In this document: piece by piece, positions 1 to 10,360 of the stretch
How the letters are laid out: the number at the start of each line of letters is the position of its first letter
Numbering within the stretch: the stretch's first letter is position 1
Source: a bacterium
GTDB taxonomy: Bacteria; RBG-13-66-14
DNA length: 15,659 bases
Direction: 5' to 3'
Assembly (NCBI GenBank): GCA_035528375.1
Contig: DATKYS010000138.1
Span: forward strand, 1 to 15,659
Program-made: the position numbers and the translations under genes
The notes under the pieces: model-generated
Seen by the model: the letters and a program-made list of their open reading frames with translations, nothing else
Databases searched by the model: none
What the model was told of the DNA's origin: nothing

Positions 1-300
1 CGGCCCGCAGAGGGGCCGCCCTACATTCCCCCTCTCCCTGTGGGAGAGGGCCGGGGTGAGGGCTGCATTATTGTCCTTCTCCCTCTTAGGGAGAGGGCTA
101 GGGTGCGGGTCGGGCCGACCTGAAGGTCGGCCCCTACATCATCGCAAAACGCGGCGGACCGCTCCAGGGGCAGCCCTACATCATCGTGGTCACGGATGAG
201 AGGCGAGCCCGCCCCCCTCTCCCAGTAGGAGCGGCGCGCCGACGGGATTAAGGGTTAGGGCTACCTTAAAAAAACGGGCCGACCGGTCGGTCGGCCTCCG
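1..300. repeat. Intergenic palindromic repeat block 1 (gene-free left end)
   Basis: No gene is supported in 1-358; the stretch holds several short inverted repeats. Bases 1-26 are a GTAGGG-type unit read on the minus strand. Bases 30-50 and 78-98 are CCCTCTCCC/GGGAGAGGG-type hairpins. Bases 112-136 carry a stem with arms GGGCCGACCT and AGGTCGGCCC followed by CCTAC. Bases 150-184 are another GTAGGG-type unit on the minus strand. Bases 198-274 are a reversed CCCT-ACCCTTAAT/GGGAGAGGG unit with an inner GGCGCGCC palindrome (233-240). The same elements recur in the other three blocks of the window. Function is unknown. Confidence 0.75.
268..296 (-). terminator. Terminator-like hairpin with T7 on the minus strand
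   Basis: Read on the minus strand, arms GGCCGACC and GGTCGGCC (289-296 and 277-284) enclose a 4-base loop and are followed by CG and seven T. This has the form of an intrinsic terminator. No minus-strand gene ends just upstream, because the next gene to the right is on the plus strand. It may therefore be a repeat-family member that only resembles a terminator, or it may block antisense transcription. Confidence 0.4.
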
Positions 301-358
301 CGTCGAAGGCGGGGGAAATATTGTAAAATATAAAAATCCTCCGGCGGAAAGGGTCGTG

Positions 359-979
359 ATGTTCGTCATCTTATACGTCATGCGGGCGGTGTTCCGCTTC
401 CTCTTCACCTTCGGGCCCCTGGCCATGGTGCGGATGGTCACCGGGATGACCTTCTCCCCCATCGCGCAGAGAATTTCGTGGAAAAGGCTCCCCGCCGAGG
501 CGGAGCGTCTCGGTCTCACCTTCACCCGGTCGAAGTCCTACAGCGAGTTCGGGGAGATAACCGGAACGGTCCGCGGGCACGGGGTGGAGGTGGAACCGGA
601 CTCGGACGCCATGGTTTCGGTGGGTTTCGGCCCGTGCAAGATCAACCTGGTGACGAGACGGCCGTCGGAGCGGCCCGACGAGGGGATGGAGGACTTCACC
701 ACGCCGAGCGGCGCGTTCAATTTAATCTTCCACACGCGCCGCGCCGCCCCCGAGCTGGCGGAGGTCTTCCGCACCGATCCGGAGCTGACGCGCGCCTTTC
801 ACCGCTATTACCTGCGCTGGATGTGGCGCCTGGATAGCATCTACGTCTTCGAGACCCGGATAATCTGCAACTTCACCTGGGGCCAGTACTTCTTCTTCCG
901 CATCCCGGCCGGTTACCTGGAGATGCTCGTGGAGGACACCGTGGGGCTGGCGGAGAGCCTGGAGGCCGCGCTGGCATAA
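359..979 (+). CDS. Hypothetical membrane-anchored protein
   Basis: I do not recognise this family. The product is about 206 residues. Residues 2-28 are strongly hydrophobic with scattered Arg (FVILYVMRAVF, then FLFTFGPLAMV), which looks like one N-terminal membrane anchor. The rest is soluble and mixed alpha/beta. It includes a GEITGTVRGHGVEVEP segment, a pattern of alternating Gly and beta residues, and an aromatic-rich stretch (RYYLRWMWRLDS) near residues 155-166. The ATG at 359 is preferred over the in-frame GTG at 356 because AAAGGG (348-353) lies five bases before the ATG but too close to the GTG. A TAAAAT box at 324-329 could be a -10 element, with no convincing -35. It stands alone, 229 bases before the next gene. 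It reads as a genuine gene: GC-rich third positions, a good start and a sensible fold pattern. Confidence 0.7.
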   Translation: MFVILYVMRAVFRFLFTFGPLAMVRMVTGMTFSPIAQRISWKRLPAEAERLGLTFTRSKSYSEFGEITGTVRGHGVEVEPDSDAMVSVGFGPCKINLVTRRPSERPDEGMEDFTTPSGAFNLIFHTRRAAPELAEVFRTDPELTRAFHRYYLRWMWRLDSIYVFETRIICNFTWGQYFFFRIPAGYLEMLVEDTVGLAESLEAALA

Positions 980-1114
980 TCAACTAATTATCGCCTGGAA
1001 ATATCGAAATATCCCGCTATACTGTTTCCCGGAGCCCGGCGGGCGTTTAAAGAAGCGGTAAAAAGAGGGTAAGGTACACCGGAACGCCCCGCAACGCGAA
1101 TCCACCATCGCTCC

Positions 1115-1147
1115 CGGGGGCGGCTCATCCCGCCCCCGTATCTTTAT
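1115..1147 (+). terminator. Candidate terminator hairpin after the 359-979 gene
   Basis: Arms CGGGGGCGG (1115-1123) and CCGCCCCCG (1130-1138) enclose a 6-base loop and are followed by TATCTTTAT. The stem is strong but the T-tract is interrupted, and it lies about 135 bases after the stop codon, so termination is possible rather than sure. Confidence 0.35.
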
Positions 1148-1171
1148 CCCCGGCACTCGATGACGTATAAT
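1143..1171 (+). promoter_or_regulatory. Sigma70-type promoter of the GNAT gene
   Basis: A consensus -10 box TATAAT (1166-1171) follows a weak -35 TTTATC (1143-1148) with a 17-base spacer. The predicted start near 1178 leaves a leader of about 30 bases before the ATG at 1209. Confidence 0.5.
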
Positions 1172-1178
1172 ATCCACG

Positions 1179-1188
1179 GGAACGTTCC
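1179..1188. promoter_or_regulatory. Perfect palindrome GGAACGTTCC at the predicted transcription start
   Basis: A perfect 10-base palindrome lies 7 bases after the TATAAT box, over the predicted start site of the GNAT gene. That is a usual place for a repressor operator. It could also be chance, and no regulator gene lies beside it. Confidence 0.3.
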
Positions 1189-1208
1189 GTAGAAAAACGG
1201 GGGCGCGG

Positions 1209-2030
1209 ATGCTGCGGGAGCTCCGGGATTACGAAAAGCTGCGCGGCCTGCTGGCGGAGAACCCCCCGGCGACCGCCATGATCGCTTACACACTCTTCCA
1301 CCAGACGCCGGAGCCCGGCGAGCCCTTCCGGCTCTGCCTGGTGGACGACCCGGAAAACCCGGCCTGCGTCCTTGTGGCCAGTTGGGGCAACCTCTTCTTT
1401 GCGAGGGATCCGGAGAAGCTCGACCTGGCGCTGGAGTACTTCGATTCCGCGGCCTACCGGGAGCTGGTCGAGGGGGTCTTCCGCGACGACCCGAAGACCG
1501 TGGCGGATTTCCTCGAGGCCTACCGCTTCGCCGGACTCCAGGAGAGTTGCTGCGAGCGGCTGCTGAAGGTGGGGGAACCCGTTTGGCGGACGCGGTGCTG
1601 GGTCCACTACTGGGACTCCCCACCGCCCCGGGAGCCCCGGATCCCCCTGGCGCCCTTGAAGCCGGAGCACGCCCGCGTGGTGGAGGCCCACTGGGAGTTC
1701 GGCGACCACGACGAGGGCTCCATCGCTTACATCCGCTGGCGAATCGAGTCCGGCCCCAGCCTGGCCTTCTACGACGAGCGGGGCGAGCCGGGTGCCTGGT
1801 GCATCACCCACGGCTCGGGCTCCCTGGGTAACATCTACACCCGTCGGGCTCACCGCCGCCTGGGTCTGGCCCAGGAAATCTCCTTCGGGATGATCCGGGC
1901 CGTCCTCGCGGGCGGCTGGCTCCCCCACGCCCACATCAAGCAGGAAAACGAGCCGTCCCTGGCCCTGGCGCGCAAGGTCGGCCTCGAGCGCGGCGACGAT
2001 GTCTCCTGGATTGCCGTCCGCCGGCGGTAA
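1209..2030 (+). CDS. GNAT-family N-acyltransferase
   Basis: A 273-residue protein whose C-terminal half (about 145-273) looks like a GCN5-related acyltransferase fold of the FR47/glycine-N-acyltransferase-like type. This type moves an acyl group from acyl-CoA to an amine. Supporting features are a beta-strand ending GAWCITHGSGSLGNIYT, then motif A YTRRAHRRLGLAQEI (about 210-224) in the place of the pyrophosphate-binding R-x-x-G-x-G/A loop, and HIKQENEPSLALARKVGLE (about 242-260), the usual Asn-rich strand and helix near the family C-terminus. The N-terminal half (1-140) is less clear and may be a degenerate second GNAT-like half, as in GLYAT-type enzymes. The substrate cannot be read from the sequence. 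It starts at ATG 1209 with only a weak GGGGG-rich ribosome site and has its own promoter (TATAAT at 1166). It converges on panC across a repeat-filled gap. Confidence 0.8.
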   Translation: MLRELRDYEKLRGLLAENPPATAMIAYTLFHQTPEPGEPFRLCLVDDPENPACVLVASWGNLFFARDPEKLDLALEYFDSAAYRELVEGVFRDDPKTVADFLEAYRFAGLQESCCERLLKVGEPVWRTRCWVHYWDSPPPREPRIPLAPLKPEHARVVEAHWEFGDHDEGSIAYIRWRIESGPSLAFYDERGEPGAWCITHGSGSLGNIYTRRAHRRLGLAQEISFGMIRAVLAGGWLPHAHIKQENEPSLALARKVGLERGDDVSWIAVRRR

Positions 2031-2047
2031 TTTTTCCCGTTCCCAAA

Positions 2048-2400
2048 TGCAGGGCGGGGCGTTTATGCCCCGCCGTTTCCATCCCGTACCACGGCCTGCG
2101 ATGACGTAGGGGCCGACCGACGGCGCGCCGTTCAGGTCGGCCCGCGGGCGACCGTGGACGGTCGCCCCTACGTGTCGGATATGCGTTAGATATACGTAGG
2201 GGCGGGTGTCTAAACCCGTCCGTTGTGGCAGCCCACCCCCGTTCCCTACCTTGCCCATCACCCCAGCCCGTCGGCGCGCCGCTCCCTGGAAGGGAGAGGG
2301 GACACACGGCAGCCCTCACCCTTAATCCCGTGAGCGAATGCTCCTCCCACAGGGAGAGGGAAATACGGGCCGACCTGAAGGTCGGCCCCTACGAGGGTCG
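2048..2400. repeat. Intergenic palindromic repeat block 2 (gap 2031-2421)
   Basis: This 391-base gap between the convergent GNAT and panC genes has no supported gene. Contents in order: a hairpin GGCGGGG/CCCCGCC (about 2050-2075) followed by GTTT, usable as a weak terminator for the GNAT gene; a composite inverted repeat (2105-2172); a GTAGGGGCGGGT/ACCCGTCC unit (2196-2222); a CCC-rich unit with GGCGCGCC (2273-2280) and GGGAGAGGGG; a second CCCTCACCCTTAATCCC unit with GGGAGAGGG (about 2309-2360); and a GGGCCGACCT/AGGTCGGCCC hairpin (2367-2391). Confidence 0.75.
2105..2172. repeat. Composite nested inverted repeat
   Basis: CGTAGGGGC at the left end and GCCCCTACG at the right end are complementary. 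Between them sit two hairpins back to back. GGCCGACC...GGTCGGCC contains an inner GACGGCGCGCCGTT-like palindrome. GGGCGACCGT/ACGGTCGCCC has a 2-base loop. It looks like two repeat units fused tail to tail. Confidence 0.6.
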
Positions 2401-2421
2401 GGAGGATACCCCGACGGTGGT

Positions 2422-3273
2422 CTAGGTCAACAGGACGTTGTCTATCAGCCGGGTCTCGCCGAAGTAGGCGGCCACCAGGGCCACGGCACCGTCAACCCCC
2501 ACCCTGGCCAGCGGTCGCAGGGTCTCGCGGTCCGCAATCTCGTAGTAGTCCAGCATGCAGTCGGGCGCCAACTGGCGGAGGTAGTTCACCCCGGCCTCGC
2601 GCAGCTTCATCGCGTCGCGCTCTCCTTCATCGAATTGCTTCTCGACGAGCTGCAGGGAGGCGTATAGCTCGCGGGCCTGTCGGCGCAGGTCCGGGCTCAG
2701 ATACCGGTTGCGGCTGCTCATCGCCAGTCCGTCGGCCTCGCGCGCGATGGGGGCGGGGAAAATCTTCACATCCAGGTGGAGGTCCTGGACCATCCGCTTG
2801 ACGACCTGGCACTGCTGGTAGTCCTTCTGCCCGAAGACGGCCGTGTCGGGGCGGACGATGTTGAAGAGCTTCAGCACCACGGTGGTTACGCCGGCGAAGT
2901 GCCCCGGTCGCGCCGCGCCGCACAGCACCTCGGTCAGGGGACCGGTGACCCGCGCCTCGGTGGCGTGGCCCTCGGGGTACATCTCCTCGATGCTCGGGTG
3001 GAAGAGGCAGTCCGTCTTCTCCTTCCGCAGGAGCCCCAGGTCACGATCCAAGTCGCGGGGGTAGCGGTCGAAATCCTCGCCGGGGCCGAACTGCGTCGGG
3101 TTGACGAAGATGCTCACCACCACCCGCTCGGCAAGTTTATGCGCCAGCCGGACCAGCGACAGGTGCCCCTCGTGCAGGTAGCCCATGGTCGGGACGAGGG
3201 CGATGCCGTACCCCTGCGACCGTTGCCGGCGCGAGTACTCCGCCATCTCGTCCACGCTGAAGATGCTCTGCAC
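2422..3273 (-). CDS. panC: Pantothenate synthetase (pantoate--beta-alanine ligase)
   Basis: PanC condenses pantoate and beta-alanine with ATP, via pantoyl-adenylate, to give pantothenate, the precursor of coenzyme A; it is cytosolic. At 283 residues it has the normal family length. All signature motifs are visible: the HIGH-type PTMGYLHEGH (28-37), FVNPTQF (56-62), RPGHFAGVTTVV (122-133), FGQKDYQQ (147-154) and the KMSKS-like DGLAMSSRNRYLS (181-193). The start is a GTG. The upstream gene's TAG ends two bases before it, so translation is probably coupled to that gene. panB and panD are not nearby. Transcription most likely comes from the promoter upstream of 4958. It converges with the GNAT gene. 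Confidence 0.97.
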   Translation of the reverse strand: MQSIFSVDEMAEYSRRQRSQGYGIALVPTMGYLHEGHLSLVRLAHKLAERVVVSIFVNPTQFGPGEDFDRYPRDLDRDLGLLRKEKTDCLFHPSIEEMYPEGHATEARVTGPLTEVLCGAARPGHFAGVTTVVLKLFNIVRPDTAVFGQKDYQQCQVVKRMVQDLHLDVKIFPAPIAREADGLAMSSRNRYLSPDLRRQARELYASLQLVEKQFDEGERDAMKLREAGVNYLRQLAPDCMLDYYEIADRETLRPLARVGVDGAVALVAAYFGETRLIDNVLLT

Positions 3274-3275
3274 GG

Positions 3276-4958
3276 CTACATCCCGAAGAAACCGAGGCCG
3301 AAGAGGATGAACTCCGCGAGGAGGGAGTCCCCCTCGAGGGTGACACGTCCCCCGGTGACGGCGGCGTTGAATCCCATCCCGGCCGACATGCCCGGCATCC
3401 CGGTCGCGTACACGGCGTCGGGGCCTTCCGTGGCGTCCAGGAGCGCGGGCATGTCCAGCCAGGCCGCCAGGTTGACCGGCTCCGTGGTGGAGGCGGCCGA
3501 CGACCGGAAAGCCCCGTCCCCGGCGAGCGTGTTCGCCCCGCCGAAGTTCTCCGCGATGAACTCCGCGGACGGGCCGTCCGGCGTCACCACCAGGCAGCCG
3601 TTAAACTCCAAAAGGTAGAGGCTCTTGCCCTCGTCCAGCTCCAGTCGCAGGCCGGGAACGCCGCCGACGGTGACCTCCTCGCCCTGCGCCGGGACGCCCT
3701 CCGTCACCGACATGAGCGCGATCAGGCCAAGGGCGAGGGCGGCCGGGTCGGGGCTCTCGAAGTAAAACGCCAGCCGGGGGTCGGCGTACTCCACTTCCAT
3801 GTCCAGCAGGTCGTCGAGGAAGTCCGCCGCGACCTCGCTTTGCGGTTCCCCGGGCAGGGCGTGGAGCGACATCCCCACCGTGTCCCCGGCCAGGGCGTCC
3901 AGCTCCCCGAGCGCGGCGAGGACCTCGGGCGGCATTTCCGGCTCCGGCGCGGGGGGCGGAGGGAGCGGTAGATAGTACAACTGCTTCTTGTTCTCGGGTA
4001 TCGCCTCCACCGAGACCGCCGCTTCCTGAACGTAGAACGCCAGCCCCAGCTCGGCGAGGGTCGTCAGCGGGCGCGCCAGGTGCGCCTCGACGGCGATAAG
4101 GCAGTGGTCGGGGTAGCGGCCCATGAGCCCGTTGACCTGACTTTGACCACCGAAGGCGTCCAGGAGCTCGACCGGCTCCCCCTCGGACAGGGTGAGGTCC
4201 ACCCGGATTCCGCCGTCCGGGCCGGGGACCAGCGCCACCCCCACCGCGTCCAGCCTCTCCTCGAAGGGCGTCAGCTCCGGCTCCGTGTAGCTCTCCGACC
4301 ACCAGTCGTACACGGGCAGGCGAACCAGGCCGTGGAGGTCCACGTAGGCCGCCAGGGCGAGCCTCTTCGGGAGCTGCGACGTGCACGTCCGGAACCGCGC
4401 CGAATCGCCCAGCCCGTACCCGTGGTGAACGACGTGGGACAGCTCCTCCACCGACTGCGAGGAGTAGATGAGCTCGTCGGTGTAGGCGATGACGTTGTCC
4501 TCGCCGCCGAAGGCGCGGAAGCCCTCGAAGCCCTCGGGCAGCTCGAGGGCGCCCAGCTCGTCAACGAGCGCGTCCAGGAGCGCGAAGATTTCGGGGTTCC
4601 GGGGGCGCAGCATGAGGGTCAGCTCCGGCTCCATCCACTCCGAGTCCGGGTCGGGGGTGGTGAGGTACAGGGCCAGCTCGGAGCGGACCAGCCCGAAGAG
4701 CTCCTCCAGCGTGTACTGCGCCAGCGCCTGGGGGAAATCCTCCTCCTCGGGCGGCCACCCGGAGAAGAGACCCGCCAGGAGCGGTTGGTTCGCGAGGGAT
4801 TCGTAGTCGAGCAGGAGGTCCGGCACGTAAATCGCGACCAGGGAGTCGTCCGGGGCGCCGGTGAGCATCGGCTGGTTGAAGACGTCGGCCGGCAGCGAGT
4901 CGGGGCTAAGAACACCCAGGAGCGACAGGATTGTGCCCAGCAGGGAAAAGGCCGCCAT
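3276..4958 (-). CDS. Secreted DUF3352-like protein of unknown function
   Basis: A 560-residue acidic protein. Residues 1-24 (MAAFSLLGTILSLLGVLSPD...) form a hydrophobic leader consistent with a signal peptide, though it has no basic n-region. The mature part begins with a segment like DUF3352 proteins: a stretch on the pattern P-D-D-S-L-V-A-I-Y-V-P-D-L, then LEELFGLVRSELALYL and later repeated L-rich beta/alpha elements. It contains a short Pro-rich stretch (PLPPPPAPEPEMPPE) near the middle and ends in a hydrophobic tail (LLAEFILFGLGFFGM). There are no catalytic motifs I can name. The ATG at 4958 has a GGGGGA ribosome site (4963-4968) five bases away. It is the first gene of a two-gene operon with panC, two bases apart. 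Assignment to DUF3352 is from overall pattern only. Confidence 0.75.
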   Translation of the reverse strand: MAAFSLLGTILSLLGVLSPDSLPADVFNQPMLTGAPDDSLVAIYVPDLLLDYESLANQPLLAGLFSGWPPEEEDFPQALAQYTLEELFGLVRSELALYLTTPDPDSEWMEPELTLMLRPRNPEIFALLDALVDELGALELPEGFEGFRAFGGEDNVIAYTDELIYSSQSVEELSHVVHHGYGLGDSARFRTCTSQLPKRLALAAYVDLHGLVRLPVYDWWSESYTEPELTPFEERLDAVGVALVPGPDGGIRVDLTLSEGEPVELLDAFGGQSQVNGLMGRYPDHCLIAVEAHLARPLTTLAELGLAFYVQEAAVSVEAIPENKKQLYYLPLPPPPAPEPEMPPEVLAALGELDALAGDTVGMSLHALPGEPQSEVAADFLDDLLDMEVEYADPRLAFYFESPDPAALALGLIALMSVTEGVPAQGEEVTVGGVPGLRLELDEGKSLYLLEFNGCLVVTPDGPSAEFIAENFGGANTLAGDGAFRSSAASTTEPVNLAAWLDMPALLDATEGPDAVYATGMPGMSAGMGFNAAVTGGRVTLEGDSLLAEFILFGLGFFGM

Positions 4959-4989
4959 GGAATCCCCCGTTCCGGCGAAGGTTCGGGAG

Positions 4990-5019
4990 ATTATAGGTCG
5001 AGACGCGCCGTGTCGGCAA
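4990..5019 (-). promoter_or_regulatory. Promoter of the DUF3352-like/panC operon
   Basis: On the minus strand, TTGCCG (5014-5019) and a perfect TATAAT (4990-4995) are separated by 18 bases. The predicted start is about 25 bases before the ATG at 4958. The -35 lies only 7 bases from the divergent tRNA promoter -35. Confidence 0.6.
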
Positions 5020-5026
5020 GCCGCCC

Positions 5027-5055
5027 TTGACCGGGCACCCGTCTTGGGCTAAAAT
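5027..5055 (+). promoter_or_regulatory. Promoter of tRNA-Cys
   Basis: TTGACC (5027-5032) and TAAAAT (5050-5055) with a 17-base spacer give a near-consensus sigma70 promoter. The start falls a few bases before the tRNA 5' end, so the 5' leader is very short. Confidence 0.65.
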
Positions 5056-5066
5056 CCCCCCCTGCC

Positions 5067-5141
5067 GGCGGCATAGCCAAGTGGCTAAGGCAGAGGACTG
5101 CAAATCCTTCATCCCCGGTTCGAGTCCGGGTGCCGCCTCCA
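5067..5141 (+). tRNA. tRNA-Cys (GCA)
   Basis: A complete 75-base tRNA. The acceptor arms GGCGGCA (5067-5073) and TGCCGCC (5131-5137) pair fully. The D-arm, a 7-base anticodon loop CTGCAAA with anticodon GCA, a short variable loop, and a T-arm with GGTTCGAGTCC are all present. The base before CCA is U73, the known identity base for bacterial tRNA-Cys, and the 3' CCA is encoded. It has its own promoter and terminator. Confidence 0.97.
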
Positions 5142-5154
5142 GCTTTTATGAAAG

Positions 5155-5178
5155 AGCGGTCCCCGGACCGCTTTTTTT
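5155..5178 (+). terminator. Rho-independent terminator of tRNA-Cys
   Basis: Arms AGCGGTCC and GGACCGCT meet in a tight loop and are followed directly by an unbroken run of T to 5178. It starts 13 bases after the tRNA CCA. Confidence 0.88.
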
Positions 5179-5205
5179 GCCTTCGGCGCGGGAAGGGTGT
5201 ATATT
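5177..5205 (+). promoter_or_regulatory. Candidate promoter of the secreted propeller gene
   Basis: TTGCCT (5177-5182) overlaps the end of the tRNA terminator and lies 17 bases before TATATT (5200-5205). This leaves a leader of about 75 bases before the ATG at 5286. Confidence 0.45.
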
Positions 5206-5285
5206 AAAGGTGGGGTGGGTTGATCCCTCTTCCCAGGTTTAATCGTTCAAGTGGTTCGAAGCGTCTTTTGTGAAACGAGGCTACG

Positions 5286-6851
5286 ATGAAGAGGCTTTTT
5301 TGCGTTGTTTTCGCGCTGGTATTCGTCGGCGCGGCGTCCGCCGGCGAGTGGCACATCGAAACGGTGGATTCGGAGGGCTATGTGGGCTGGTACACTTCCC
5401 TGGCGCTGGACTCCTCCGACTATCCCCACATCTCGTATTACGATGTGTGGAACCGGGATCTCAAATACACCCACTGGGACGGCGGTTCTTGGCAGACAGA
5501 GACAGTTGACTCGGAGGGAAGCGTAGGTGAATGGACATCCCTGGCATTGGACTCTAACGATTACCCCCACATCTCGTATTACGACTACACCAACGGAAAC
5601 CTAAAATACGCCCGTTGGGACGGCAGCTCTTGGCAGACAGAGACAATTGACTTGGGAGGTCAGTACACATCCCTATCAATAGATTATAACGGTTATCCCT
5701 GCATCTCGTATTATGAACCCAACAATGGAGATTTAAAATACGCCCGCTGGGACGGCGGCTATTGGCTGACTGAGACCGTTGACGAGGGGGATGACGTAGG
5801 CATGTGGTCCTCTCTGGCGCATGATTCGTCTGGCAAACCTCACATTTCGTATTACGACCTCACCAATACAGGCCTTAGATACGCCTATTGGACAGGTAGT
5901 ACTTGGGGTCGCGTAGCCGTTGATACGAAGTGGCATGTGGGCGAATACACCTCACTCGCGTTGGATTCCTCTGGCTACCCCCGAATCATGTATCAGGAAT
6001 ACTGGTCCAACGGCAGTTATTTAAAATACGCTCGGAGGCTCGAAGACAAGTGGATATTTTTGGACGTTGACACCGAAGACGCAGGCTACTACACTTCCCT
6101 CGCGCTGGACACTTCCGACCGACCTCGCATCTCGTACCGAGGCAACGGGAATCTCAGATACGCAAGCTGGACCGGCAGCTCTTGGCACATTGAGACCGTG
6201 GACTCGGAGGGAAGATACACCTCCCTTGCGCTGGACTCCCTCGGCAACCCACATATCTCATATTACGCCAACGAAGCTCTAAAATACGCTTATTGGGATC
6301 CCGGGCCGGGGGTGGAGGGGGCGGAGGTTTCCGCGAACACCTGCGACGAGGGCGTGCTGGTCGGCTGGACGATAACCGGCGACGCACCGGCGAGTTTTAA
6401 CGTCCTGCGGTCGGCGGGGGAAAATGAACCGGATGCAATCTCCGGCGCTCTTCCCGGAACGGCGGCCCGCTGGCTGGATAGCGATGTAGAAGCTGGGGGC
6501 GAGTACCTCTACTGGCTGGAAGCCATCGAGGAGGACGGGACGGTGAGCCGCTTCGGGCCGACGGAGGCGGTGGCGTTCCCCGGAGCAGCTCGGGAGCTTG
6601 CGTTATCAATCTACCCCAGCCCGGTGAAGGGTTCATTCACGGTTGATTACACGCTGCCCGAGGACGGCCGTATAAGTATATCGCTCTACGACCTTTCGGG
6701 ACGGCGTGTATCAACGATTCTCGACGGTGAGATGACCGCCGGGCGCCATGATATTTCCTACGACGCCTCGGCGCTTCCACCGGGCGTTTACCTCGCCCGC
6801 CTGGCGACCGATTCCGGCTCCCTCACCCGGCGGGTGGTGATTGCGCGTTAA
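5286..6851 (+). CDS. Secreted seven-repeat beta-propeller protein with T9SS-type sorting tail
   Basis: A 521-residue exported protein. Residues 1-19 are a classic signal peptide (MKRLF, hydrophobic core, ASA then Gly). Residues 21-340 hold seven repeats of 39-50 residues, each near W-x-x-ETVDSEG-x-YTSLALDSS-x-x-PHISYYD-x-x-N-x-x-LKYA-x-WDGSSW. They start at about 21, 71, 118, 162, 209, 258 and 302. This suggests a seven-bladed propeller, probably for binding or display. Residues 341-433 resemble a fibronectin type III-like domain. Residues 434-521 match the FlgD-like/Por-secretion tail: IYPSPVKGSFTVDYTLPEDG, then ISLYDLSGRRV, GRHDISYDASALPPGVYLARL, ending RRVVIAR. Such tails direct export through the type IX system in Bacteroidota and related phyla. 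The start ATG has a weak CGAGG site. The repeat DNA is visibly more AT-rich than the neighbouring genes. The ligand is unknown. Confidence 0.85.
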   Translation: MKRLFCVVFALVFVGAASAGEWHIETVDSEGYVGWYTSLALDSSDYPHISYYDVWNRDLKYTHWDGGSWQTETVDSEGSVGEWTSLALDSNDYPHISYYDYTNGNLKYARWDGSSWQTETIDLGGQYTSLSIDYNGYPCISYYEPNNGDLKYARWDGGYWLTETVDEGDDVGMWSSLAHDSSGKPHISYYDLTNTGLRYAYWTGSTWGRVAVDTKWHVGEYTSLALDSSGYPRIMYQEYWSNGSYLKYARRLEDKWIFLDVDTEDAGYYTSLALDTSDRPRISYRGNGNLRYASWTGSSWHIETVDSEGRYTSLALDSLGNPHISYYANEALKYAYWDPGPGVEGAEVSANTCDEGVLVGWTITGDAPASFNVLRSAGENEPDAISGALPGTAARWLDSDVEAGGEYLYWLEAIEEDGTVSRFGPTEAVAFPGAARELALSIYPSPVKGSFTVDYTLPEDGRISISLYDLSGRRVSTILDGEMTAGRHDISYDASALPPGVYLARLATDSGSLTRRVVIAR

Positions 6852-7035
6852 AAAAACGCGGCGGCCCGCAGAGGGCCGACCTAAAGGTCGGCCCCTACGA
6901 GGTTATCGTGCGATTCGAAACGTAGGGCGGGGATTCCTATCCCCGCCGCGTTTTACCCTCACCCTAGCCCGTAGGCGAGCCTCCCCCCAGAGGGGGGAGG
7001 GGAAAATGTAGGGCGGAGCTTCTACGCCCCGCCGC
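6852..7035. repeat. Intergenic palindromic repeat block 3
   Basis: It fills the gap between the convergent propeller and RND genes. In order: a GGGCCGACCT/AGGTCGGCCC-type hairpin (6873-6898); a linker; a GTAGGGCGGGGA/TCCCCGCCG hairpin (6922-6948) followed by CGTTTTA, which could end propeller transcription; a CCCTCACCCTAGCCC unit with CTCCCCCC/GGGGGGAG arms (about 6956-7002); and a GTAGGGCGGAGC/GCCCCGCCG hairpin (7008-7033), which on the minus strand could help end the RND transcript. Confidence 0.75.
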
Positions 7036-7046
7036 GGGGAGGGCGG

Positions 7047-9794
7047 TCATACCTTCAACCCCCAGCGCTCCACCACCCGCACCAGCGCCGGGAGGAAGAA
7101 AACGCTGGTCAGGAAGCACGCCGCCACGCCGACCATGAGCGCTATCCCCATCGAGGAGAAGCCCTGCATCCGGGCGAAAATCATCGAGCCGAAGCCGATC
7201 CCCGTCGTCAGGCTGGTCAAAAACACCGCCCGCCCCGTCCGCGACAGCGTGACATCGAAGTTACCCTCCCGGCGGTAGCGGTGGATGATGTGCACCCCGT
7301 CATCTATACCGATGCCCAGCACCAGCGGCACGGCGAAGATGTTCATGTAGTTGACCTTCACCCCGCAAAGCGCCATCACCCCCAGCATGACGACGCTCCC
7401 CGCCGCCAGCGGCACCATGGCCAACAGCGTCGTGTGCAGCTTGCGGAAATCGAGGAACAACAGCACGAAGATAGCACCCAGGGCGATGAGGGTGGCCAGC
7501 TCCCCGTCCTGCCCGGCCTCGTCTATCATGGACAAAAAGAGCTGCGGCGTGCCCACGCTCTCCGGTTCCACCGCCCCCACACCGTCCGAGAAGGCCCGGA
7601 GCCGGTCCTGGTCCGCGAAGAGGTCGAAGCGGGGGAATACTGTAACCAGATAGCGGGTGCCGTCGCGGCTCAGGTATCGGGAGCGCATTTCCGGAGTGAG
7701 GTCGGTCTCGGTGATTTCTTTTGAATTGGCGAAACCGGGCTCACCGCCGGCCCCCAGGAGCCAGTCCCGCTGCGCCCTGAAGTAGGCCCGCTGGAAATCG
7801 GTCAGCCGCCGGGCGGCGTCATCCGCTTCTCGGCGCAGGGACTCCGCGAGCGCCACCAGCGGCTTCGTCGGCGAGTCGTAGCCGGTGAGCGTCTCGCAGC
7901 GACGCTGGAGTTCGGACTTGACCGAGGTCTCCGCGATGACCCGGAGCTCGAGGAGGTTGAGCTGGAGCCGCTCCAGCTCGTCGGCCATGCCGAGCACCTG
8001 TCCGGCGGTCACCGGCGGCGGTTCCGCCCAGGCGGCCACGGCGTCGTCAATGCCGCGGATTACGGGCGCCCGCTCCCCCTGGTCCGCCTCCGCGGGAATG
8101 AACCGCGAGACCGTGTCTATCTCCCCCACGTAGCCCTTGTCCTTCAGCCGGTCGTAGACCTCCCGGGAGCGCTCCACGGAGTCGGTCACCACCAGGGAAT
8201 AATCGGGGGAGAGGTCGAAGTGGTCCTCGATGAGGCCGGCCAGCTCGATGGACTCCAGCCCCTTGGGCTCCATGTTGTAGATGTTCCAGTCGAATCGAGT
8301 CCCGAGAAGCGCCGCAACCAGCAAACCGCCCCCGACGAGCAGCCCGGCGGCGGCGAAGAGCCAGGGACGGCGGTCCATGGCGCGTCCGACCGCGCCCAGG
8401 AGCGGCAGCTCCACCGCCAGGCCCTTGGGGAGCTTGACGGCGACGCCCCGCCTGCGCGCCCGCCGTTCCCGGAGTGATTCCCGGATGGAAAGGAGCGCCG
8501 GCAGCACCAGGAGCATGGCCACCAGGGCCAGGATTATCGAGACGCCGCTTACGAAGCCCAGGTCCCGGACGCCGCGCATCTCCCCGGCCAGCATGGACAG
8601 AAAGGCCGCCGCCGTGGTCAACGCGCCGGTGAGAATCCCCATCCCGCTCCGCCCGAGCCCCACGGCCAGCGCCTCCTCCATCGGGCGTCCCTCGCTCCGC
8701 GCCTCGTTCACCCCGCTCAGGATGTGAATCGCGTAGTCTATCCCCAGCCCCACGATGAAGACGGTGAAGAACATGCTGAAGAGGTTGAGGCAGCCCGAGT
8801 AGAGCTGCATGGCGCCGGCGCTCCACACCAGGGCCAGCAGGAGGGGGATTCCGGCCAGAAGCGGGGCGACGACGATGCGGAAGAATACGATCAGGGCCAG
8901 AAGGACGAGGATAAGTGCCACGATTGTGGACCAGGCCATATCACCCATCCCCGCCTCGTACTCGTCGCGGGCGAGCGCCAGAGCCCCGGCCAGGCCGACC
9001 TCGATCCGCCCGGCGAAGGGCTCCTCCGCCGCGGCGGATTTGCAGACGGCCTCGATGTCGTTGACGGCCACGACCACCCGGTCCATCTCGTCAATGGAAA
9101 AGGTGGGCTGGAGCCAGATGAGAAGGAGGCTCCGGTCGGCGGAGAAGATGTAGGGTTCGCCCAGGGAGAGCTCGCGCACGGCCCGGCGGGCGGTATCATC
9201 CGGCGCTGCGGTGATCTCCCCGGCGCCGTAGCGGCCGACGTTTTCCGCGAAGCGGTACAGCCCCTCGATCCGCATGATGGCGTCGCTCTCTCGCTCCCGG
9301 GTTTCGACGCCGCCGCCCACGTAGGTCTTCTCCAGGGAATCGTTCAGCGCGGCGAGGGTGTGGTCGAGCGCCGGGGACTCGAAGACGGGAGCGAGGTCGT
9401 CCAGGTCGTCCGCCGAGAGCAGCATCAGACCGTGATGGGAGGCGAAGTCGTCGTCCAGGCGGTAGTTGACCCAGCGGACGTAGGAGTCCATCGCGGTCAG
9501 GCGCGGAGCCAGGCGGTCGGCGAACCGGGCCATCAGCTCGGGATTTTCGCCCCGGACCACCACGGTCACGAAGTTCGCCGAGTCGTAATGCTTGGTGATG
9601 TCGCTGAAGGCCACCACCTGGGGGTTGTCCTCGGGCATTATCTCGGTGAGGTTCGTCCTGATTTCGAGCCGCTCGGCCAGGTAGCCGGCTCCCAGGGTGA
9701 CGACGACGGCCCCGGCAAGTATCCACCACCGTCGGCGGTGGGTGAAGCGCCCCAGGGCGCCGAAGAATCGCGTACGCAGGTTCTCGTGTTCCAT
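7047..9794 (-). CDS. RND/MMPL-family transporter
   Basis: A 915-residue inner-membrane protein with the two-fold RND plan. TM1 (about 23-40) is followed by a large periplasmic loop (41-285) and a five-helix bundle (286-435). TM7 (about 479-497) is followed by a second large loop (498-765) and a second bundle (766-905). The paired motifs GLGIDYAIHI (349-358) and GIGIDDGVHII (827-837) match the Asp-containing TM4 motifs of proton-driven RND/MMPL proteins. The architecture is like HpnN (hopanoid transport) and other 'predicted exporters of the RND superfamily' that act without a fused outer-membrane channel. The second loop includes a probable coiled coil (about 600-670). The ATG at 9794 has GAGG (9802-9805) seven bases upstream. 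No adaptor, TolC or hopanoid gene lies nearby, so the cargo cannot be named. Lipid or hydrophobic cargo is an inference from the family. Confidence 0.9.
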   Translation of the reverse strand: MEHENLRTRFFGALGRFTHRRRWWILAGAVVVTLGAGYLAERLEIRTNLTEIMPEDNPQVVAFSDITKHYDSANFVTVVVRGENPELMARFADRLAPRLTAMDSYVRWVNYRLDDDFASHHGLMLLSADDLDDLAPVFESPALDHTLAALNDSLEKTYVGGGVETRERESDAIMRIEGLYRFAENVGRYGAGEITAAPDDTARRAVRELSLGEPYIFSADRSLLLIWLQPTFSIDEMDRVVVAVNDIEAVCKSAAAEEPFAGRIEVGLAGALALARDEYEAGMGDMAWSTIVALILVLLALIVFFRIVVAPLLAGIPLLLALVWSAGAMQLYSGCLNLFSMFFTVFIVGLGIDYAIHILSGVNEARSEGRPMEEALAVGLGRSGMGILTGALTTAAAFLSMLAGEMRGVRDLGFVSGVSIILALVAMLLVLPALLSIRESLRERRARRRGVAVKLPKGLAVELPLLGAVGRAMDRRPWLFAAAGLLVGGGLLVAALLGTRFDWNIYNMEPKGLESIELAGLIEDHFDLSPDYSLVVTDSVERSREVYDRLKDKGYVGEIDTVSRFIPAEADQGERAPVIRGIDDAVAAWAEPPPVTAGQVLGMADELERLQLNLLELRVIAETSVKSELQRRCETLTGYDSPTKPLVALAESLRREADDAARRLTDFQRAYFRAQRDWLLGAGGEPGFANSKEITETDLTPEMRSRYLSRDGTRYLVTVFPRFDLFADQDRLRAFSDGVGAVEPESVGTPQLFLSMIDEAGQDGELATLIALGAIFVLLFLDFRKLHTTLLAMVPLAAGSVVMLGVMALCGVKVNYMNIFAVPLVLGIGIDDGVHIIHRYRREGNFDVTLSRTGRAVFLTSLTTGIGFGSMIFARMQGFSSMGIALMVGVAACFLTSVFFLPALVRVVERWGLKV

Positions 9795-9917
9795 GAATGG
9801 TCCTCGGCGGGCGTTTGCTGAATCGGGGCCCGGTCCGGCGTCACAGTGCCTGCACGGTAGTTTAGCACTTTCGGGGCGGACGGGAGAAGGCCGTTCTCGT
9901 GCGGGAATAGTTCAAAG

Positions 9918-10335
9918 GTAGCCCTCACCCCCATCCCCGTCGGCGCGCCGCTCCCTAAAAGGGAGAGGGGACCAGCGCAACCCTCACCTGCAATTGCGAT
10001 GATGTAGGGCGGCCCCTCCGCGGGCCGCCGCGATTGATATAACACCACCTTTTTTTCGAAGGCAGCCCTAACCCTTAATCCCTCTCCCACGGGGAGAGGG
10101 ATGCGGGCCGACCTGAAGGTCGGCCCCTATGAGGTTGCCGTGCGGTTCTAAATGTAGGGCGGGGACTTTAGTCCCCGCCGTTTTTTCAAAGGCAGCCCTC
10201 ACCCTTAATCCCTCTCCCACAGGGAGAGGGAAACCGCCTCAATCGTCACCCCTACCCCGTGCCTCGCAGGCCTCCCACGGGGAGAGGGAAAAATAGGGAA
10301 ATGCCGATAACATAAAGACGGGTTCAACCCCGCCC
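9918..10335. repeat. Intergenic palindromic repeat block 4 (gap 9795-10360)
   Basis: The 566-base gap between the RND start and the receiver gene holds no supported gene and is mostly repeats. In order: GGTAGCCCTCACCCCC with GGCGCGCC (9942-9949) and GGGAGAGGGG; a GTAGGGCGGCCC/GGGCCGCCGCG hairpin (10003-10032); T7; GGCAGCCCTAACCCTTAATC with GGGAGAGGG; a GGGCCGACCT/AGGTCGGCCC hairpin (10105-10129); a linker; a GTAGGGCGGGGAC/GTCCCCGCCG hairpin (10153-10180); T6; a second GGCAGCCCTCACCCTTAATC with GGGAGAGGG (to about 10230); a degenerate copy (to 10288); and a reversed CGGGTTCAACCCCGCCCC unit (10318-10335). The RND promoter should lie near 9859-9864 (TAAACT on the minus strand), but no good -35 is seen. 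Confidence 0.78.
10157..10186 (+). terminator. Terminator-shaped repeat unit with T6
   Basis: Arms GGCGGGGAC and GTCCCCGCC with a TTTA loop are followed by G and six T, a textbook intrinsic-terminator shape on the plus strand. No plus-strand gene reads into it, so this is either a mobile or portable unit or a barrier to antisense transcripts. Confidence 0.4.
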
Positions 10336-10360
10336 CTCGGCGACCGGGATTCCCGCCGGC

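Follow-up and report, generated by a model that had tools for sequence, protein, structure and literature searches.

The window, a 15,659-nucleotide stretch that forms contig C138 of a 2.63 Mb assembly (144 contigs, reported as 100% complete), carries short hairpins that share a GTAGGG flank and differ in their stems, which raises the question of what these units are and how a mixture of stems came to stand in one genome. All of the window's hairpins lie in four intergenic gaps, around 1–355, 2031–2421, 6852–7046 and 9795–10360, among ordinary genes (pantoate ligase, GNAT protein, Por-tail protein, MMPL transporter, response regulator, EAL protein, MscS channel and others). At 5286–6851 the window encodes a secreted protein in which a unit of 126–144 bases recurs about seven times; it has a Por-type C-terminal sorting domain and many partial relatives in sister genomes. 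REP elements are tiny hairpin-shaped DNA repeats that occur in many bacteria. As set out below, the units are very probably REPs of the GTAG type, non-autonomous elements read as single-stranded DNA (ssDNA) hairpins by the HUH transposases known as RAYTs (TnpA-REP), lineages of which would have spread the stem classes.

A covariance model (R1) built from units of this genome recovered 11 units in the window at E < 1e-5. Six stem classes were distinguished genome-wide: A (GGGCCGACC), B (GGGCGACC), C (GGGCGGGT), D (GGGCGGACC), E (GGCGGGG) and F (GGCGGCCC). Class A accounts for the minus-strand units at 112–137 (GTAGGGGCCGACCTTCAGGTCGGCCC, 37.9 bits), 2367–2392 (37.9 bits), 6873–6898 (37.6 bits) and 10105–10130 (29.3 bits, tag decayed to ATAG). 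A class B unit at 2146–2171 (minus strand, GTAGGGGCGACCGTCCACGGTCGCCC, 36.6 bits) stands tail-to-tail, across a 24-base spacer, with a slightly decayed class C unit at 2196–2221 (plus, 32.1 bits); likewise, the class E2 unit at 6922–6947 (plus, GTAGGGCGGGGATTCCTATCCCCGCC, 37.5 bits) is tail-to-tail with the A unit at 6873–6898, with 23 bases between them. The remaining matches, all on the plus strand, are a class E variant at 7008–7033 (32.6 bits), a class E1 unit at 10154–10179 (GTAGGGCGGGGACTTTAGTCCCCGCC, 39.6 bits), a class F unit at 10004–10029 (31.8 bits) and a unit with a GGCGGGGC stem and the decayed tag GCAG at 2049–2074 (27.3 bits). Besides these 11, a class F unit (GCGGCCCC..GGGCCGC; GTAGGGCGGCCCCTCTGCGGGCCG on the minus strand) is truncated by the window start (1–24, minus), and a long-loop class A unit at 2106–2143 (plus), recognized from its sequence and a DNA fold of −14.8 kcal/mol, is head-to-head with the B unit at 2146–2171 across the spacer GC. 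A weak match of only 9.1 bits at 276–296 (plus) is probably a class A remnant that has no tag.

All the units named by the initial annotation were found, with positions off by at most 1–2 bases, and those at 2049, 2106 and 7008 had been overlooked. The flank that it described as fixed is an exact GTAGGG in 9 of the 11 strong units, the exceptions being the ATAG at 10105 and the GCAG at 2049; the self-complementary arms that it listed are present, with mismatches in the stem at 2196. Nine GTAGGG tags in the window had 7 or more of 10 pairs at a fixed offset; in 300 dinucleotide shuffles there were 0.05 such tags on average and never more than 2. Folded as ssDNA, most of the window's units were much more stable than their own shuffles, class F being the weakest (z −2.75).

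Across 1.21 Mb of the same genome we counted 397 units, 9 of them inside genes, in a shared 26-base format of an unpaired GTAG and a 22-base hairpin (stem 8–10 bp, loop 2–6 bases). Within 404 kb, 121 of 310 GTAGGG sites had at least 7 of 10 pairs at the fixed offset, compared with 0–8 hairpins among the 39–599 sites of each of nine other hexamer tags. Among 59 distinct units, 94.2% of cells paired, a percentage inflated because units were selected for pairing, and the covariation score was 0.698, compared with 0.179 for shuffles and no more than 0.168 with partners slid; sliding the partner by one column lowered pairing to 51–55%. Cells changed on both sides numbered 152, against 54 in shuffles. 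The proposal that the two arms change together, the fold being kept rather than the stem letters, was thus borne out genome-wide. The list of classes with many perfect copies is independent of the pairing-based selection. Class composition from the fetched stretches was discarded because those contigs had been picked by hits.

The genome holds one PF01797 gene, at C91:11737–12210, whose 157-residue product, P0001, scored 109.4 bits against NF047646, the NCBIfam equivalog for REP-associated tyrosine transposases (cut-off 80). Its nearest relative of solved structure is the TnpA-REP 4er8. P0001 carries the motifs DHLH (HUH), YIWENP (Y..NP) and WQ..D..R, the residues of the last of which contact GTAG in the E. 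coli enzyme (PMC6006769). With an HUH motif, a Y---NP motif and a low (single) copy number, as in RAYT/TnpA-REP class 2, P0001 is, on sequence grounds, a RAYT. On the 5′ side of its gene a class D unit ends 12 bases upstream of the start codon, and on the 3′ side a long-loop A unit, the form seen at 2106–2143 in the window, starts 8 bases past the stop codon, followed at 75 bases by a D-like unit. GTAGGG hairpins on both sides of a RAYT are the published layout of a REPtron.

The initial annotation had known no named family or function for the repeat; in fact, the units agree with the published definition of GTAG REPs (PMC3733652), and a cognate transposase is present in the genome. GTAG REPs have a 5′ unpaired GTAG (GTRG), a palindrome of 20–40 bases with a 5–13 bp stem and a short loop, high copy number, a mainly intergenic location, inverted dimers and an association with a RAYT, and the units here show each of these features. 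The adjacency of P0001 and the RAYT–hairpin pairs of this genome and its sister species support the REP identity, and we infer that the RAYT cleaves and spreads the units, acting on ssDNA.

Three sister species of the genus have three, one and two RAYTs, and all six copies have GTAGGG hairpins about 100–200 bases from the domain; two near-complete family-mates have no intact RAYT. Across the genus, RAYT lineage I stands beside classes D and A, lineage II beside B and C, lineage III beside E1 and lineage IV beside E2. The window's own genome still has a lineage I RAYT; of lineage IV it keeps a relic of 25 codons (G000:C130:6401–6475, minus strand; L151). This relic adjoins an E2 hairpin with an insert in its loop, which is about 28 bases long and includes GCTCGCTGCGCTCGG. 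The window's E2 unit (6922–6947) thus belongs to the class of this dead RAYT, and its E1 unit (10154–10179) is identical to hairpins beside lineage III RAYTs in two sister species. The RAYT of this genome (L001) clusters with Chloroflexota RAYTs (L171–L177; 47–52% identity) and not with sister-species RAYTs (about 34% identity), which suggests that it was acquired by horizontal transfer.

Perfect copies were counted by pattern in this genome (G000) and three compared genomes (G001, G002 and G003, in that order after G000). Class A gave 73/35/31/22 copies, class B 58/27/12/0, class C 102/20/29/3, class D 31/4/12/4, class E1 20/42/42/2 and class E2 30/57/6/34; in the two RAYT-less family-mates, perfect copies were confined to class A, with 4 in one and 0 in the other. 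Over the four genomes, the share of a class tracked its cognate RAYT for E1 (P = 2e-14), E2 (P = 1e-19) and, weakly, D (P = 0.03), did not differ with RAYT presence for A and B, and ran opposite to prediction for C (P = 7e-6), with P values that serve as a guide only because copies are non-independent and the genomes are only four. Classes B and C are most frequent in this genome, in whose 144-contig assembly their partner, the lineage II RAYT, was not found. Either that RAYT is missing from the assembly, or it has been lost, or RAYT I mobilizes several classes; for orphan classes in general we infer RAYT loss as the cause.

Since different RAYT lineages stand beside different stems or loops, the mixture of stems resembles a set of layers, deposited by several lineages. 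A rival concerns the origin of the mixture and leaves the REP identity untouched: the single resident RAYT, of lineage I, would mobilize every stem class. It is the sole intact RAYT here, with D and long-loop A hairpins on its two sides, and B and C are abundant without their partner. We nevertheless regard this as unlikely, as the RAYT lineages of sister species adjoin different classes, the shares of E1, E2 and D track their RAYTs, and loops track RAYT phylogeny. Under the layered reading, a RAYT would recognize the loop and the unpaired GTAG, and would need a stem that is paired and of set length, ignoring most stem letters; letters that are mostly unread would be free to drift by compensation into new classes; each of lineages I–IV would spread one or two classes; and classes would persist as orphans after their RAYT was lost, leaving a mixture in one genome.

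The strong covariation could also be keeping an RNA fold, that of a structured element which works in transcripts (in their processing, stability or regulation), and the initial annotation had proposed a search of transcripts. Placement might be read in the same way, with units lying downstream of genes and at 3.49 per kb in convergent gaps against 0.61 per kb in divergent ones (approximate figures, because genes came from a simple codon-usage caller), as might the 53 G.T cells against 33 A.C cells. In same-direction gaps, however, units split 83:82 between the two strands, showing no strand preference with respect to transcription; Rfam covariance models matched only a tRNA in the window; a mild G.T excess is likewise expected for ssDNA; and the same observations are accounted for by the GTAG tag and the neighbouring RAYTs, GTAG with a hairpin being the target of an ssDNA transposase (PMC8266576). 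The RNA reading is therefore very improbable. We give as little credence to the units being intrinsic transcription terminators, GC-rich hairpins of which about one fifth are followed by GYTTT (88 of 397). That fraction and the enrichment in convergent gaps would fit, but a T-run is absent from most units, the ones that have it in same-direction gaps split 23:20 between sense and antisense, and termination needs neither a 5′ GTAG nor a conserved loop; some units may nonetheless act as terminators after insertion. That the hairpins are not REPs but the decayed ends of a single IS200/IS605-type insertion sequence, a possibility raised at the outset and compatible with the fold common to RAYTs and IS200 transposases and with a match of P0001 to the IS200 model below its cut-off, is scarcely credible given hundreds of hairpins against a single Y1 gene, units with no IS body between them, and boundaries fixed at 26 bases for at least six stem classes, each in many perfect copies.

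The REPs also stand in inverted pairs: this genome has 34 closely spaced head-to-head pairs, and 42 that are tail-to-tail with spacers of 15–40 bases. The head-to-head spacer measured 2 bases in 33 of the 34 and was GC in 30; the length of tail-to-tail spacers depends on the classes joined (29 bases where A meets C, 20–24 where B meets C or E). Partners nearly always differ in class: same-class pairs numbered 1 of 34 head-to-head (6.7 expected) and 0 of 42 tail-to-tail (9.2 expected), and 0 of 17 and 0 of 18 in sister species, a preference that may possibly be an assembly effect through loss of perfect palindromes, 95 of the 397 units lying at contig ends. As to mobility, two presence/absence pairs differ by exactly 26 bases, at within-genome and cross-species paralogous sites, although these are repeated contexts and could reflect deletions. 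Orthologous empty sites were sought in the sister species, where the intergenic DNA proved too diverged.

A second abundant repeat, CCCTCACCC..CCC-T-CTCCC-loop-GGGAGAGGGG, shares these gaps (window 28–100, 2267–2363, 6955–7004, 9921–9972, 10061–10103 and 10191–10293), with 316 core hairpins in 1.21 Mb. In about one fifth to one quarter of copies the T is replaced by a second, tiny hairpin made of GT and a 4 bp stem; its arms covary (72 of 145, compared with 7 for shuffles). We found neither a GTAG tag nor a transposase partner for this repeat. We rejected GTCGGCGCGCCG as a free micro-palindrome, as nearly all its copies lie at the CCC_CTCCC site of the second repeat. The long-loop class A hairpins (window 2106–2143; L001:1911–1948, at the RAYT locus of this genome) have 12 additional bases with the palindrome GGCGCGCC, which is also present in the micro-hairpin of the second repeat.

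We also surveyed 66 related RAYT loci, drawn from Chloroflexota, Bacillota, Bacteroidota, Latescibacterota, Zixibacteria, Cyanobacteria and other groups, using a single RAYT protein as query, the RAYT alignment being insufficiently conserved. A GTRG hairpin lay within 300 bases in 39 of the 66, at a density of 2.03 per kb up to that distance against 0.17 beyond it (12-fold), and GTRG gave 78 hits where other tags gave 1–8. On the RAYT tree, the character ‘TTYA loop’ changed 5 times, compared with 11.5 for shuffles, and 0 of 500 shuffles reached so low a count. The clade of the RAYT from this genome (11 rows, support 98/98) had a TTYA loop in 10 of 11 by strict search, and in the eleventh in hairpins with one mismatch; stems vary widely within it. 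The loop thus tracks RAYT phylogeny across phyla, and stems drift by compensation. In vitro, cutting by the Stenotrophomonas maltophilia (Sm) enzyme requires GTAG, a single base of the loop is essential, and the stem must pair, with many complementary swaps tolerated (PMC8266576); a fixed tag, an enzyme-tracking loop and a drifting stem agree with these results. Tentatively, and with rather less than even confidence, we propose that a multi-phylum RAYT clade reads GTAG and a loop code, which is TTYA for the clade to which this RAYT belongs, that the stem drifts as a neutral tag of amplification history, and that close inverted pairs survive only if their classes differ.

These results give a name to a repeat that is common yet unlabelled in uncultivated bacteria and link it to a transposase; they supply natural covariation data that match in vitro work on one S. 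maltophilia REPtron, and a clean example of the unexplained preference for unlike REP pairs. We found no published description of this exact GTAGGG family in the literature. What is new is the presence of GTAG REP and RAYT members in an uncultivated lineage; the kind of element, its partner, orphan classes and the heterodimer preference have been described already.

The GTAG REP super-family (Di Nocera et al. 2013, PMC3733652) shares with these units the 5′ unpaired GTAG, a short perfect hairpin with a 2–4 base loop, high copy number, intergenic location with a convergent bias, head-to-head and tail-to-tail pairs, more hetero- than homodimers, and units flanking the RAYT. Here, the lineage and, as far as that study's descriptions show, the stems are others, and the head-to-head spacer is fixed at 2 bases, nearly always GC. 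Di Nocera et al. saw the same preference for unlike pairs and offered removal of long palindromes as a possible reason. The Sm RAYT/TnpA-REP system of S. maltophilia (group 3; Corneloup et al. 2021, PMC8266576) likewise has short REPs that are perfect palindromes, and its tolerance of complementary stem swaps predicts the stem pattern of this genome; the loop sequence differs here, and the protein is known from its sequence. Inverted REP pairs as a possible unit of movement are shared with REPINs (Bertels and Rainey 2011, PMC3116915), which are symmetrical, whereas the pairs here nearly always join two different classes. Finally, REP classes that have no RAYT are known as orphan REPs in Pseudomonas and Stenotrophomonas, where they have been attributed either to loss of the RAYT or to a change of the REP that flanks it (‘orthoswitch’; Nunvar et al. 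2013, PMC3686654), and here, in distinction, a RAYT relic adjoins a hairpin of the orphan class.
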